From Jiangella endophytica (GTDB taxonomy: Bacteria; Actinomycetota; Actinomycetes; Jiangellales; Jiangellaceae), in assembly GCF_003427025.1 (NCBI RefSeq), contig NZ_QVAI01000005.1, forward strand, positions 248,001 through 312,000: 64,000 nt of DNA, written 5' to 3'. This document shows, in pieces, positions 13,788-37,996 of this stretch. The first letter of the stretch is position 1. Each line of letters opens with the position of its first letter. The position numbers and the translations under genes were made by a program. The notes beneath the pieces are model-generated. The model ran no database searches and was not told the DNA's origin. It saw only the letters and a list, made by a program, of their open reading frames with translations.

Positions 13788-13834
13788 CGCTCCAACGTAT
13801 GCCGAGATCGCCCCGCGGCACCAGAGCCCTCGCC

Positions 13835-13936
13835 CCCCTCGGAATGATCACGTTAAGGAGGGGTGCTCCCGCTCTCCGAGGCATGCATGCCTGGGGAAGC
13901 GAACAGACCCCTCCTTAACGTGATCATTCCGAGGGG
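13835..13936. repeat. Intergenic palindromic element E1: 30-bp perfect inverted repeat
   Basis: Arms 13835-13864 and 13907-13936 are perfect 30-bp reverse complements, each carrying TGATCA about 10 bases from the outer end. The 42-base loop contains the palindrome AGGCATGCATGCCT (13879-13892) preceded by CTCCCGCTC (13866-13874). The element lies between the divergent fprA and narK genes, so it is not a terminator for either. It shares its core with the element at 36568-36657. A non-autonomous mobile or REP-like repeat is likely; an effect on narK transcription is possible. Confidence 0.9.
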
Positions 13937-14064
13937 TCTCACGGCGGGTCGCGGCCCGGGGTGAGGAGACGTTGACACGAGCGCGCCGCTCAGGGCACGT
14001 CACCTTAATGGAGCGTTCCTAGCGTCGGCGGCCTGTGGAGTCAGACCCCGATCCGGAGGACGTC

Positions 14065-25365: not shown

Positions 25366-26064
25366 GTGAGCGATGTACTCGTAGCGGTGGCGCACGGCAC
25401 CCGCGCCCCCGAAGGCCCCGTCGTCCTGTCGTCCTTGCTGGAGCGCGTGCGGGCTCTGCTGCCCGGCGTGGACGTGCGGGTGGCGTACGTGGACGTGATC
25501 TCGCCGACGTTGTCGTCGGTGCTGGCCGGGGTCGCGCCGGGGGCGCGGGCGGTCGTCGTGCCGATGTTCCTGGCGTCGGGCTATCACGTGCGGGTGGACG
25601 TGCCGTCCGCGGTGGCCTCGGACGGCGGGCGGGCGATCGTCACACCGGCGCTCGGCCCCGACGCGGCGGTCGTCGCCGCTGTGGAAGCGCGGCTGCGGTC
25701 GGTCGCGCCGGACGGCGTGCCCGAGGCGGTCGTGCTGGCCGCGGCGGGCTCGTCCGACGAGTCGGCGCTGGCCGAGGTCGCGGTGGCGGCGTCCCTGCTG
25801 TCGTCGGCGCTCGGCCGCCCGGTGGAACCCGCGTACGTCACCACGGCGTCGCCGTCCGTGCCCGACGCGGTCTCGTCCCTGCGCGCCGCCGGCCACGCGA
25901 CCGTCGGCGTGGCGTCCTACCTGCTGGCGCCCGGGCTCTTCCAGCAACGCCTCGCCACCTCCGGCGCCGACCTCGTCGCCCCGCCGATCGGGCCGCACCC
26001 GCTGGTCGCCGCGCTGATCGCCGACCGCTACCGCGTCGCGGTCTCGGCGGACGAGGTTCCATGA
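25366..26064 (+). CDS. Sirohydrochlorin chelatase/CbiX-like protein
   Basis: 232 residues of the class II chelatase fold in two repeated halves: VAVAHGTRAPEGPVVLSSLL with the metal-binding His, VRVAYVDVISPTL, VVVPMFLASGYHVRVDVP with a second His, then a degenerate second half (VVLAAAGSSDESALAEVAVAASLL, GVASYLLAPGLFQQRLA). It should insert Fe2+ into sirohydrochlorin to give siroheme for NirB. GTG start at 25366, 50 bases from the divergent ThrE gene. The stop lies in the left arm of a palindromic terminator. Cobalt rather than iron insertion cannot be excluded. Confidence 0.88.
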   Translation: MSDVLVAVAHGTRAPEGPVVLSSLLERVRALLPGVDVRVAYVDVISPTLSSVLAGVAPGARAVVVPMFLASGYHVRVDVPSAVASDGGRAIVTPALGPDAAVVAAVEARLRSVAPDGVPEAVVLAAAGSSDESALAEVAVAASLLSSALGRPVEPAYVTTASPSVPDAVSSLRAAGHATVGVASYLLAPGLFQQRLATSGADLVAPPIGPHPLVAALIADRYRVAVSADEVP

Positions 26065-26111
26065 TCATCAACCTTTTGCGCTGCTATCACGACGCAGAAG
26101 GTTGATGATCA
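26062..26111. terminator. Palindromic element E2, bidirectional terminator holding both stop codons
   Basis: Arms 26062-26080 and 26093-26111 pair over 19 bp with one mismatch around a 12-base loop. Both outer ends are TGATCA, so the arms supply the TGA stop of the chelatase on the plus strand (26062-26064) and the TGA of the convergent gene on the minus strand (26109-26111). The right arm shares GTTGATGATCAC with the element near 36650. Confidence 0.85.
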
Positions 26112-26624
26112 CGGGAGCTGTTCGCGGAGTCCGGCCTCGGTCAGGCGGCGCAGGTGCTCGGCATAGCCGTCCGGCTCCGGCCGCCGCACCGTGTCGCCCG
26201 AGATCGCGTCGTACACGCCCTGGGCGGTGAGGCCGCGGGCCGCCAGCCACGCCGTGGCGCCGTCGCTGCTGCCCTCCTCGTCCTCGTCGACCGCGTGCAG
26301 CATGTAGTCGGTGAGCCGGACCCGTCCCCATTGGACGGCGGGGACGGGGTAAGGGTCGCCGGGCGCCGGTTCCGGCCCGAACGCGTCGAACCAGATGTCG
26401 CGAAGCCACTCGTCGGTGCCCCACTGGGAGTCGTTGTGCCGAGGCGGCAAGGACGACTCGCGAATGTGCGTGGCCAGTTCGTCGCGGAACTCTGTGAGGC
26501 CCCGGTTGTCCTCGGCCAGCCACGCCGGTACGCGCTCGCACGCCTCGATGTACAGCGTCAAGTCGGTCTCGGCGCTGAACCAGCCGCCGAGATAGCCGCG
26601 GAAGTTCTGGCTGCGTGGGATCAC
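26109..26624 (-). CDS. Candidate immunity protein, coupled to the upstream toxin-like gene
   Basis: 171-residue acidic protein rich in Asp, Glu and Trp, without signal or membrane segment. The N-terminal part (FRGYLGGWFSAETDL, PAWLAEDNRGLTEFRDELATHI) recalls contact-dependent-inhibition (CdiI-like) immunity proteins, which start with a short 'GYF-D' segment followed by helices. I chose the GTG at 26624 because it overlaps the previous stop as GTGA. Small acidic partner genes overlapping the 3' end of a toxin gene are the usual toxin-immunity arrangement. The family link is from motif memory and is unproven. It ends inside a bidirectional terminator. Confidence 0.5.
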   Translation of the reverse strand: MIPRSQNFRGYLGGWFSAETDLTLYIEACERVPAWLAEDNRGLTEFRDELATHIRESSLPPRHNDSQWGTDEWLRDIWFDAFGPEPAPGDPYPVPAVQWGRVRLTDYMLHAVDEDEEGSSDGATAWLAARGLTAQGVYDAISGDTVRRPEPDGYAEHLRRLTEAGLREQLP

Positions 26625-35113: not shown

Positions 35114-35208
35114 CTGTAGGTCCTTCCCCCAAGCGTCCCGATGTGCTGGTCGGGTCCAGTCTCCCGTACGGTGATGTCCGCCGTGTCAACAGGTTGAGGG
35201 GGACGACG

Positions 35209-36564
35209 ATGTGGAGGCGGGCCGCGATCGTGGCCGGCTGCGTGGCCGTGCTCGCCGGTGGCGCCGGGATCGTGCTCGATCGCACAACCGGTCTGCCCTG
35301 GATCGACGACGAGGCGGCGGCCGAGACGCCGCTGTTCCGGCCGGCGGCGGGACCAGCGCCGACGTGGTCCGCCGCGCCCGGGGTGCTGGCCGCTCCGGCC
35401 GACGCCGGCACGACCGGTGAGCCGGCCGTCGGCGACGTGCTCGCGCCCACGCTCGGCGCCGCGGGGCTGGGCGGCGCGGTGGGCGTCAGCGTCGTGAACC
35501 TCGCCACGGGCACGCCGTCCTACGAGGCCGCCGGCACCGACCCGCACACCCCGGCCAGCACGTTGAAGATCCTCACCGGTGCCGCGGCCCTGCAGGCGCT
35601 CGGCCCGGAGCACACGTTCACCACCCGCGTCGTCAGCGGGCCGGACCCGTCCGCCGTCACGCTGGTGGGCGGCGGCGACCCCACGCTGACCGCCGACGAG
35701 GACGGCGCCGGTACCCGGCTGGCCGACCTCGCCGTGGCGACGGCGCAGGCACTGGCCGAGGCAGGGGTCACGACCGTGACGCTGTCCTACGACGCGTCGC
35801 TGTTCAGCGGTCCGGCCGTGGACCCCGACTGGAGCCCCGGCTACGTCCCCAGCGTCGTCTCACCGACCACCGCGCTCGCCGCCGACATCCAGGACCGGCC
35901 GTCCGACCCGCCGCTCGACGCGGCCGAGGAGTTCGCCGACCTGCTGAGCGACCAGGGCATCACCGTCGACGGCGACCCGGCCGAGGCCGCCGCGCCGGCC
36001 GATGGCGCCGAGCTGGCCGCCGTCGCGTCCGCGCCGCTCTCGACCATCGTCGAGGACGTCCTCACCAGCAGCGACAACGACGGCGCCGAGGTGCTGGCCC
36101 GGCACGTCGCGCTCGCCGCCGGTGCGGCGGGCACGTCCGCCGACGCCGGTCCGGCGGTCGTGCAGGCGCTCTCCGCGCTCGGGCTGGACGCGTCGGGGGC
36201 GACCCTGCTCGACGGCAGCGGGCTGGCGCGCGGCAGCGCGGTCCCGGCCGGACTGATCACCCAGACGCTGGTCCTGGCCGCCGGGCCGGACCACCCCGAC
36301 CTGCGCGCCGTCGTCACCGGGCTGCCGGTCGCCGCGTTCACCGGCACGCTCGCGGACCGCTTCGACGACTCGTCCGCGGCCGGACTGGTCCGGGCCAAGA
36401 CCGGCACGCTCACCGGCGTCAGCGCGCTGGCCGGCGTGGTCGTGGCCGCCGACGGCGTCCCCTACGCGTTCGCGGTGCTCGCCGACGACGTCGGCAACAC
36501 GACGGAGGCGCGGGCCGCGCTCGACGACGTCGCGGCAGCGTTGGCGGGCTGTGGCTGCGCTTAG
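35209..36564 (+). CDS. dacB: D-alanyl-D-alanine carboxypeptidase/endopeptidase (PBP4 type, S13)
   Basis: 451-residue low-molecular-mass PBP that trims or cuts peptidoglycan stem peptides outside the membrane. An N-terminal membrane segment (RRAAIVAGCVAVLAGGAGIVL) precedes the S13 domain with S117-TLK, S288-DN and K397-TG. The large inserted domains between SxxK and SxN (about 150-270) are typical of PBP4, here shortened. ATG 35209 follows GAGGGGGACG. The protein ends in CGCA. Position beside ppa and tilS is the conserved actinobacterial arrangement. Palindromic elements begin 3 bases after the stop. Confidence 0.95.
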   Translation: MWRRAAIVAGCVAVLAGGAGIVLDRTTGLPWIDDEAAAETPLFRPAAGPAPTWSAAPGVLAAPADAGTTGEPAVGDVLAPTLGAAGLGGAVGVSVVNLATGTPSYEAAGTDPHTPASTLKILTGAAALQALGPEHTFTTRVVSGPDPSAVTLVGGGDPTLTADEDGAGTRLADLAVATAQALAEAGVTTVTLSYDASLFSGPAVDPDWSPGYVPSVVSPTTALAADIQDRPSDPPLDAAEEFADLLSDQGITVDGDPAEAAAPADGAELAAVASAPLSTIVEDVLTSSDNDGAEVLARHVALAAGAAGTSADAGPAVVQALSALGLDASGATLLDGSGLARGSAVPAGLITQTLVLAAGPDHPDLRAVVTGLPVAAFTGTLADRFDDSSAAGLVRAKTGTLTGVSALAGVVVAADGVPYAFAVLADDVGNTTEARAALDDVAAALAGCGCA

Positions 36565-36567
36565 TGA

Positions 36568-36657
36568 GTGATCATGTGGCGTTCTCCCGCTCGACCAGGC
36601 ATGCATGCCTGGTCGAGCGGGAGAACGCCTGGTGTCGTAGCGATCGTTGATGATCAC
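36568..36657. repeat. Palindromic element E3: 52-bp perfect palindrome with TGATCA outer arms
   Basis: 36578-36629 is a perfect 52-bp palindrome centred on AGGCATGCATGCCT. Outer arms GTGATCAT (36568-36575) and ATGATCAC (36650-36657) also pair. CTCCCGCTC (36584-36592) sits 13 bases from the core start exactly as in element E1 at 13835, so the two are related copies. The 319-base gap between dacB and the metalloprotease gene holds only this element, E4 and a short promoter region. It may terminate dacB, but its size and repetition suggest a dispersed repeat. Confidence 0.9.
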
Positions 36658-36716
36658 CGTTGTCCACCAGCACTGACCGCGGCCCGTTCACGCCTACGCG
36701 CAGCGGGGTGAGCACT

Positions 36717-36770
36717 GTGATCAAGGGTGGGTCGTGATCGCCAGGGCAGCGCCAACCCGCTCCTGATCAC
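36717..36770. repeat. Palindromic element E4: imperfect inverted repeat ending in TGATCA
   Basis: 36717-36732 and 36755-36770 form an imperfect inverted repeat (13 of 16 pairs) beginning and ending with GTGATCA/TGATCAC, with a 22-base loop. It lies 60 bases beyond element E3 in the same gap. It looks like a diverged copy of the same type of TGATCA-ended palindrome. Confidence 0.65.
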
Positions 36771-36883
36771 GGTTCTCACCGAGCCCGATCCGGCTGCCAC
36801 CCCACCACCGACAATCGGATTCACTCATTCAGCGTGTGTCTCACCCCGACGCGGGCCGGCGGCCGGTGACGTAGCGTGGTCGT

Positions 36884-37996
36884 ATGACGACCGCTGACGC
36901 CGCTCCCGACATGGTCGACTGGGACCTCGCGGTCGCGACGGCACAACGACTGGCCGGTCCCGGACCGGCCGTCACCGACTCCGAGGCCCGCGACGCCGTG
37001 GCGGAGCTGCGCCGGCTCGCCGGCGAGGCCGAGGCACACGTCAACGGCTTCACCGGGCTCGACGCCTCGCTCGGCTACGCGCCGCTGGTGGTCGTCGACC
37101 GCGGCAACTGGGCCCGGGCCAACGCTCAGAGCATGCGCACGATCATCGCGCCGCTGCAGCGCAAGCTGCAGAAAGGCCGCGAGCGCACCCCGTTCCAGCG
37201 GGTCGGCCCCAAGGTCACGGGGCTGCAGACCGGCGCGCTGCTGGCGTTCCTGGCCAGCAAGGTGCTCGGCCAGTTCGACCCGTTCTGGGCCGGCCGGCTG
37301 GGCGGCCCCGACGACGGCGCGCAGGGCCGGCTGCTGCTCGTCGCGCCCAACATCGTCCACGTCGAGCGCGAGCTGGGCGTCGACCCGCACGACTTCCGGC
37401 TGTGGGTCACTCTGCACGAAGAGACGCACCGGGTGCAGTTCACCGCGGTGCCCTGGCTGCGCGATCACCTGGCCGGCGAGATCGAGGCGTTCGTCGAGGC
37501 CACCGATGTCGACCCCGGTGCGTTCCTGACCCGCGCCCGCGACGCCGTCCGCGCCCTCGGCGAGACCGCCCGGTCCGGCGACGGCGGCAGCTCCGTCCTC
37601 GACCTCGTCCAGACCCCGGCGCAGAAGGCCGTCCTCGACCGCGTCACGGCGTTCATGTCGCTGCTCGAAGGGCACGCCGACGTCGTCATGGACGGCGTCG
37701 GGCCCGATGTCATCCCGTCCGTCGAGACCATCCGGCGCCGGTTCCAGCGCCGCCGCTACTCGTCGGTCGGGCTCGACCGCACGTTCCGCCGGCTGCTGGG
37801 CCTCGACGCCAAGATGCGCCAGTACCGCGACGGCGCGGCGTTCGTGAACGCCGTCGTCGGCCGGGTCGGCATGGCCGGCTTCAACCGCGTCTGGGAGTCG
37901 CCCGCCACGCTGCCGACGAAGGACGAGATCGCCGACCCCGTCGCCTGGGTGCGCCGGGTGCACGGCCTGCCGGCGCTCGGCCGCGACGGCGCCTGA
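36884..37996 (+). CDS. Zinc-dependent metalloprotease-like protein (DUF2342 type)
   Basis: 370-residue protein of the actinobacterial family once labelled 'coenzyme F420 biosynthesis associated' and often found between dacB and tilS. A zinc-binding H178-EETH182 motif lies in [14 protein letters not shown], and a second conserved acidic patch [15 protein letters not shown] probably supplies the third ligand. The early block [21 protein letters not shown] is also family-typical. No signal peptide, so cytoplasmic or peripheral. The substrate is unknown. ATG 36884; the following tilS ATG is 14 bases beyond its stop, so the two are probably co-transcribed. Confidence 0.88.

Follow-up and report, generated by a model that had tools for sequence, protein, structure and literature searches.

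A perfect 52-bp palindrome downstream of dacB in Jiangella endophytica is probably the hairpin core of a dispersed intergenic repeat

For GTAG REPs, the proposed mobilising enzymes are RAYT transposases. Parts of PMC3733652 describe REPs as lying near gene 3' ends, at no more than 20 bp from both genes where these are convergent, with GTAG REP ends that often supply a stop codon. Intergenic MITE-type elements such as ERIC are described in part of a review (PMC10969869), and part of PMC8604942 links template switching in yeast to both loop inversion and arm homogenisation. Within the genus considered here, the sections of the J. gansuensis genome paper that were available mention repeats only as CRISPR (PMC5292007). 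Literature of partial coverage on Jiangella, on actinobacterial palindromic intergenic repeats and on TGATCA repeats held no description of a TGATCA-tagged family.

The locus lies in a 64-kb window of the J. endophytica genome, the window being the whole stretch of 64,000 nucleotides analysed. The original prediction described a perfect, loopless 52-bp palindrome after dacB at 36578-36629, and this was confirmed: arms of 26 nt each (36578-36603 and 36604-36629) are 100% complementary (26/26) around a 0-nt loop. About 1e-11 such palindromes are expected by chance in 64 kb, and among the 25 longest inverted repeats listed for the window this was the only one both perfect and with arms of at least 26 nt. 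The RNA fold of 36562-36680 reached -69.8 kcal/mol (z -7.18). TGATCA occurs on the left at 36569-36574 and on the right at 36651-36656, separated from the palindrome by 3 and 21 bases rather than the 2 and 20 first given. The description of the structure as normally unstable is doubtful at 52 bp; in E. coli, palindromes generally have to be much longer before they become strongly unstable. The features of the site are as follows.

35143-36564, + strand: dacB, encoding a D-Ala-D-Ala carboxypeptidase (Peptidase_S13, E 3.4e-73), stop codon at 36562-36564
36565-36850: DNA absent from congeners, approximate extent from congener alignments
36569-36574: left TGATCA, in part private to the dacB copy
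36571-36673, + strand: class A repeat copy, with left edge ATCATG, hairpin and one-sided tail reaching GTCCACCAGCAC, from alignment with other copies
36578-36629: 52-bp perfect palindrome, the hairpin core of the class A repeat, from arm match and RNA fold
36642-36659, + strand: tail motif GATCGTTGATGATCACCG, including the right TGATCA, at tail offset 39 from the centre
36674-36844, + strand: outer modules common to few copies, from coverage by own-genome copies
36884-37996, + strand: zincin-like metallopeptidase gene, the conserved downstream neighbour of dacB

The order of dacB and the zincin gene was retained in all 11 Jiangella congeners. Neither the palindrome nor the TGATCA arms were present between the two genes in any of the 11, and in four congeners (G004, G005, G009 and G010) the gap measured 55-56 bp. 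All eight congener windows that aligned lacked the palindrome: similarity ended at 36560-36564 and restarted at 36845-36884. This break indicates that some 285 bp, comprising hairpin, tail and outer modules, were gained in the J. endophytica lineage. Because the dacB site is without the palindrome in all 11 congeners, comparison of these sites indicates that the class A copy arrived in this lineage, directly after the dacB stop codon. Loss in all 11 congeners instead of gain is formally possible and far less simple than arrival. Three congeners (G008, G002 and G007) carried a different insert in this position, adjoining the dacB stop and bearing the inverted ends AGGAGGGCCGGGCAAG ... CTTGCCCGGCCC; the dacB 3' end has thus received unrelated inserts more than once.

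The palindrome had been attributed to recent formation or active maintenance. Conservation across distant relatives, the outcome set beforehand as counting against that prediction, was not seen, and the absence from 11/11 congeners agrees with the first half of the attribution. It also points to a lineage-specific copy of a dispersed repeat and not to a conserved terminator. A dedicated dacB transcription terminator, its strong stem kept by selection, is accordingly improbable: the palindrome does stand directly after the dacB stop, 13 bp past the gene's 3' end, and its fold is very stable, but it has no T-run, there were no terminator-like sites in 36400-36900, some 180 similar copies lie elsewhere, and class A arms are without co-variation. 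The inserted hairpin could nonetheless have some terminator-like activity as a by-product. There was no predicted promoter near the palindrome (36400-36900) and no match to Rfam families in the 64-kb window; the window also held no tRNAs, and a tRNA-associated site was therefore rejected.

To place the dacB copy among its relatives, the region 36500-36720 was compared with its own genome (7.85 Mb, 89 contigs). It gave at least 81 matches at no fewer than 41 distinct places, a lower bound in that 40 of 474 first-look candidates were scored. The E-values of this search exclude chance similarity as the source of the other copies. A repeat profile found 40 hairpins in an unselected 1.684 Mb (four 400-kb pieces, the 64-kb window and the window's left neighbour), and an independent scan for centres in the same sequence gave 40 centres, 39 of them true. 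Extrapolation yields roughly 180-186 related hairpins in the whole genome. By GC3-based gene calls, which are cruder than annotation, 38/40 hairpins were intergenic, in 16 convergent, 17 tandem and 5 divergent gaps; with 172 convergent, 381 tandem and 179 divergent gaps available, the convergent excess was significant (p 0.0085).

Exact matches to the tail pattern were found 24 times in a search of 84,980 species, which may omit records of the J. endophytica genome itself, and all 24 were in Jiangella (four species). Viral contigs, plasmids and phages gave no match to the repeat, and a plasmid, phage or viral origin was rejected. Matches to the palindrome region occurred in 8/11 congeners, the one in G008 being short and in the tail only, with none in G004, G009 or G010; class B, a second class of the repeat described below, matched in 7/11. 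The exact 18-base core was present in 5/393 genomes of the class, four of them Jiangella (the own genome included) and one from another genus of the same family. In this last genome (L060, G014:C117) a perfect palindrome has the identical 18-base core CCAGGCATGCATGCCTGG and different arms. The dacB palindrome is thus one of roughly 180 related hairpins, with related copies in most, not all, congeners. We consider it probable, with good confidence, that it is the hairpin core of a non-coding class A copy, recently arrived after dacB, in a family of palindromic repeats that is specific to Jiangella and dispersed between genes. The dacB locus alone is an ordinary repeat copy, and the TGATCA-tagged family is the interesting part.

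Class A and class B hairpins have a common centre, GGCATGCATGCC. Class A carries a one-sided tail, GATCGTTGATGATCATCG, of which the right TGATCA at dacB is a part; 44/51 copies had exactly one tail, and its offset from the centre was 39 in 45 of the 47 tails detected. Per-base coverage by other own-genome copies drops beyond about 36575-36673, and the exact ends of the class A copy at dacB are uncertain. At the left TGATCA, the closest sister copy (L009) reads CCATCATGTGGCG / CCATCATG where the window copy reads TGATCATGTGGCG; a deletion in a formerly symmetrical left arm of the dacB copy is a possible alternative account of this motif. Outside the repeat, the module at 36718-36824 matched L009 at 81%, and one at about 36793-36834 was common to L013, L017, L018, L023, L025 and others.

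These data bear on the proposal that a smaller TGATCA hairpin already stood at dacB and took up the central palindrome. TGATCA hairpins of a further class, class C, do exist in the genome, and the class A tail is similar to one half of such a hairpin, as far as sequence resemblance can suggest. An empty site bearing the outer TGATCA arms alone was found at 0/11 congener sites, however, and no class A copy clearly had tails on both sides, with one weak case among 51. We regard this origin as very improbable. The outer TGATCA holds up as a structural tag of the repeat, and the reading as arms of an earlier hairpin is not supported at dacB.

Other members of the superfamily lie in the same window:

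13829-13942, - strand: class B member of the hairpin superfamily, with ends TGATCACGTTAAGG..., absent from aligned congener sites
26060-26113: class C hairpin bounded by TGATCA, 44-bp spacing

Class B has terminal inverted repeats (26 facing end pairs), whereas class A, with its one-sided tail, has none. The class B end AATGATCACGTNNAG occurred exactly 85 times in the own genome against 0 in the control; because the TGATCACGT end was the defining criterion for class B, counting TGATCA in that class is circular. Spacing of the 26 facing pairs was mostly fixed, at 71 (9 pairs), 140 or 141 (6) and 161 or 162 (7), with one pair each at 193, 204, 213 and 1190. Whole elements measured 84 to about 175 bp, and a two-hairpin example folded as a single long hairpin (-120.4 kcal/mol, z -11.4). 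End variants matched within elements in 15/26 cases against 6.3 expected (p 1e-4), which subfamily inheritance would equally give. Two further classes are bounded by TGATCA without the common centre: class C (spacing 44, 10 in a strict count) and class D (spacing 51, 4). In a comparison of all 64 six-base palindromes over the 1.684 Mb, TGATCA bounded 20 hairpins for 472 occurrences vs 29 for 6536 of CGGCCG.

Some sites hold elements of different class or size in two species, which suggests in-place turnover besides insertion. Three arrangements of copies were also observed. A tandem array of units of about 88 bp adjoins a class A copy (L033:3758-4320); three hairpins of classes A and B are mixed within about 360 bp, as if recombined or nested (L027:2889-3250); and short tandem hairpin-arm copies (GGTGAAGCGAACGGACRCC-like units) lie inside two class B elements (L237 and L238).

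Arm identity was assessed over 98 copies, comprising 39 from the unselected 1.684 Mb and the rest fetched by matching and so not a random sample; one non-member (C23:463640, scores 14 and 5) was removed before these counts. Identity ranged from 13 to 26 of 26, and two of the 98 were perfect, the dacB copy and C23:259177. Within class A, the two arms of a copy were no more alike than arms paired by shuffling (19.95 vs 20.11; 4007/5000 shuffles reached the observed value), and thus give no sign of family-wide active maintenance, the second half of the attribution made at the outset. Own-arm matching in class B was weak (455/5000 shuffles reached it). Arm co-variation was rejected as a selection signal, being absent in class A and weak in class B. 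G.T mismatches outnumbered A.C mismatches by 222 to 61, a ratio that depends on orientation; oriented by class, the counts were 64 to 41 and 74 to 51.

In G009 the class C hairpin of 26060-26113 is present at the same place with its loop sequence inverted, likely by a template-switch or inversion event. At dacB, template switching between the arms may have corrected a class A hairpin in place, turning imperfect arms into a perfect palindrome, although we think it somewhat less probable than not having happened. L009 has an imperfect left arm and yet has flanking modules in common with the dacB copy, and the G-C pair at arm position 11 of the dacB copy is present in only 2/39 distinct class A arm pairs. 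The inverted G009 loop is of the kind that template switching is known to cause, as described in part of PMC8604942. Against correction, class A overall has no excess of own-arm matching, and the dacB copy could descend from a perfect progenitor, C23:259177 being perfect as well.

A resident RAYT is refuted as the mover. Y1 transposase (RAYT-type, Y1_Tnp) was detected in 0/12 Jiangella genomes, the own genome included, while the control search was positive in 5/14 reference genomes, and a RAYT-type mobiliser was rejected. An extinct RAYT could still have acted. The repeats resemble REPs in being hairpins, intergenic and of many copies, and class B sits at gene ends as REPs do according to parts of PMC3733652; even so, it is very improbable that they are classical REPs mobilised by a RAYT transposase. 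Within 16 bases either side of the stem base, GTAG was present in only 11/51 class A and 0/47 class B copies, and CGTC in 12/51 and 23/47, so that neither motif is conserved.

The class B end pair at 1190 bp encloses an AbiEi-like gene (PF13338, E 3.6e-9) and not a transposase. No other long class B end pair was found in the own genome, nor by exact pattern in G003 and G005. An AbiEi-like gene within class B ends occupies an orthologous place in two species (L254:1863-3069, that is G000:C34:34860-36064, and L281). In G007 the orthologous gene lies inside the same end repeats with a different hairpin core, and in the own genome the repeats flank 1/6 of the gene's places; it was therefore rejected as the family mover and is treated as cargo. 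No target-site duplication was detected at 26 class B elements, where direct repeats between an element's own flanks averaged 1.04 bases vs 1.46 when shuffled.

Class B ends lay close to gene 3' ends: 66/81 had one within 400 bp (median 10 among the 66) and 55/81 within 30 bp, compared with 104/2000 random intergenic points within 30 bp. At 11/81 class B ends a long coding frame enters the end repeat and stops at the tag's own TGA. Among 21 class A sample copies, that at dacB was the only one with a gene 3' end at 30 bp or less, so the case for class A acting at gene 3' ends in general is weak. One class B site has both genes ending inside the tags, and there G004 shows exactly abutting convergent stops, TGATCA; no abutting TGATCA stops were found at this site in G005, G007, G008, G009 or G010. 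At the metE site, an empty TGATCA was found in 0/11 congeners, and G003 has its own TGATCA hairpin there. The class B site at 13835 likewise had no empty TGATCA in aligned congeners.

These observations allow a broader and tentative proposal, which we rate as unlikely in its full form: a TGATCA-tagged, REP-like superfamily, comprising classes A to D with element sizes that are mostly fixed, spreads independently of any RAYT, class B inserts at gene ends, and insertion between abutting convergent stops (TGA|TCA) keeps both stops. Both genes would retain a stop, TGA being present on either strand of the tag. For the dacB copy, the proposed course is spread as a non-autonomous REP/MITE-like element that would have been moved by a separate factor. 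Gene 3' ends may be safe sites, which would explain why the copy is tolerated, and the dacB mRNA would then carry a stable hairpin at its 3' end. Its perfect arms may reflect youth or a single arm-copying (template-switch) event rather than continuing selection on the family. If the broader proposal is true, the existence of a REP-like family that has a tag of its own, fixed sizes and stop-supplying ends in a genus lacking Y1 transposase would imply a different mover, and the congeners with and without repeats would be a clean system for finding it.

Among described systems, template-switch correction of quasipalindromes, as presented in part of PMC8604942, is similar in the perfect arms of one copy and in the loop inversion between orthologous hairpins. 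It is a mutation process and not an element family, however, and class A has no arm-homogenisation trend. MITE-type palindromes (ERIC, Correia/NEMIS and RUP), in the portion of PMC10969869 that treats them, are likewise non-coding and intergenic, with inverted-repeat ends, in tens to hundreds of lineage-limited copies. The Jiangella repeats differ in that class B had no detected target-site duplication (n=26) and no parental insertion sequence was found among the class B end pairs of the own genome or, by exact pattern, of G003 and G005, and in that the tail sequence was confined to Jiangella in the 84,980-species search. Compared with REPs, the Jiangella tag is TGATCA and not GTAG/CGTC, the hairpins are longer (52-bp core at dacB; class B 84 to about 175 bp), and the genus is without Y1/RAYT transposase (12 genomes). 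Similar to REPs as parts of PMC3733652 describe them, the Jiangella hairpins are many-copy and intergenic, in excess at convergent genes and found as singles and pairs, and class B elements sit at the 3' ends of genes, where they often supply the stop codon, like GTAG REPs.
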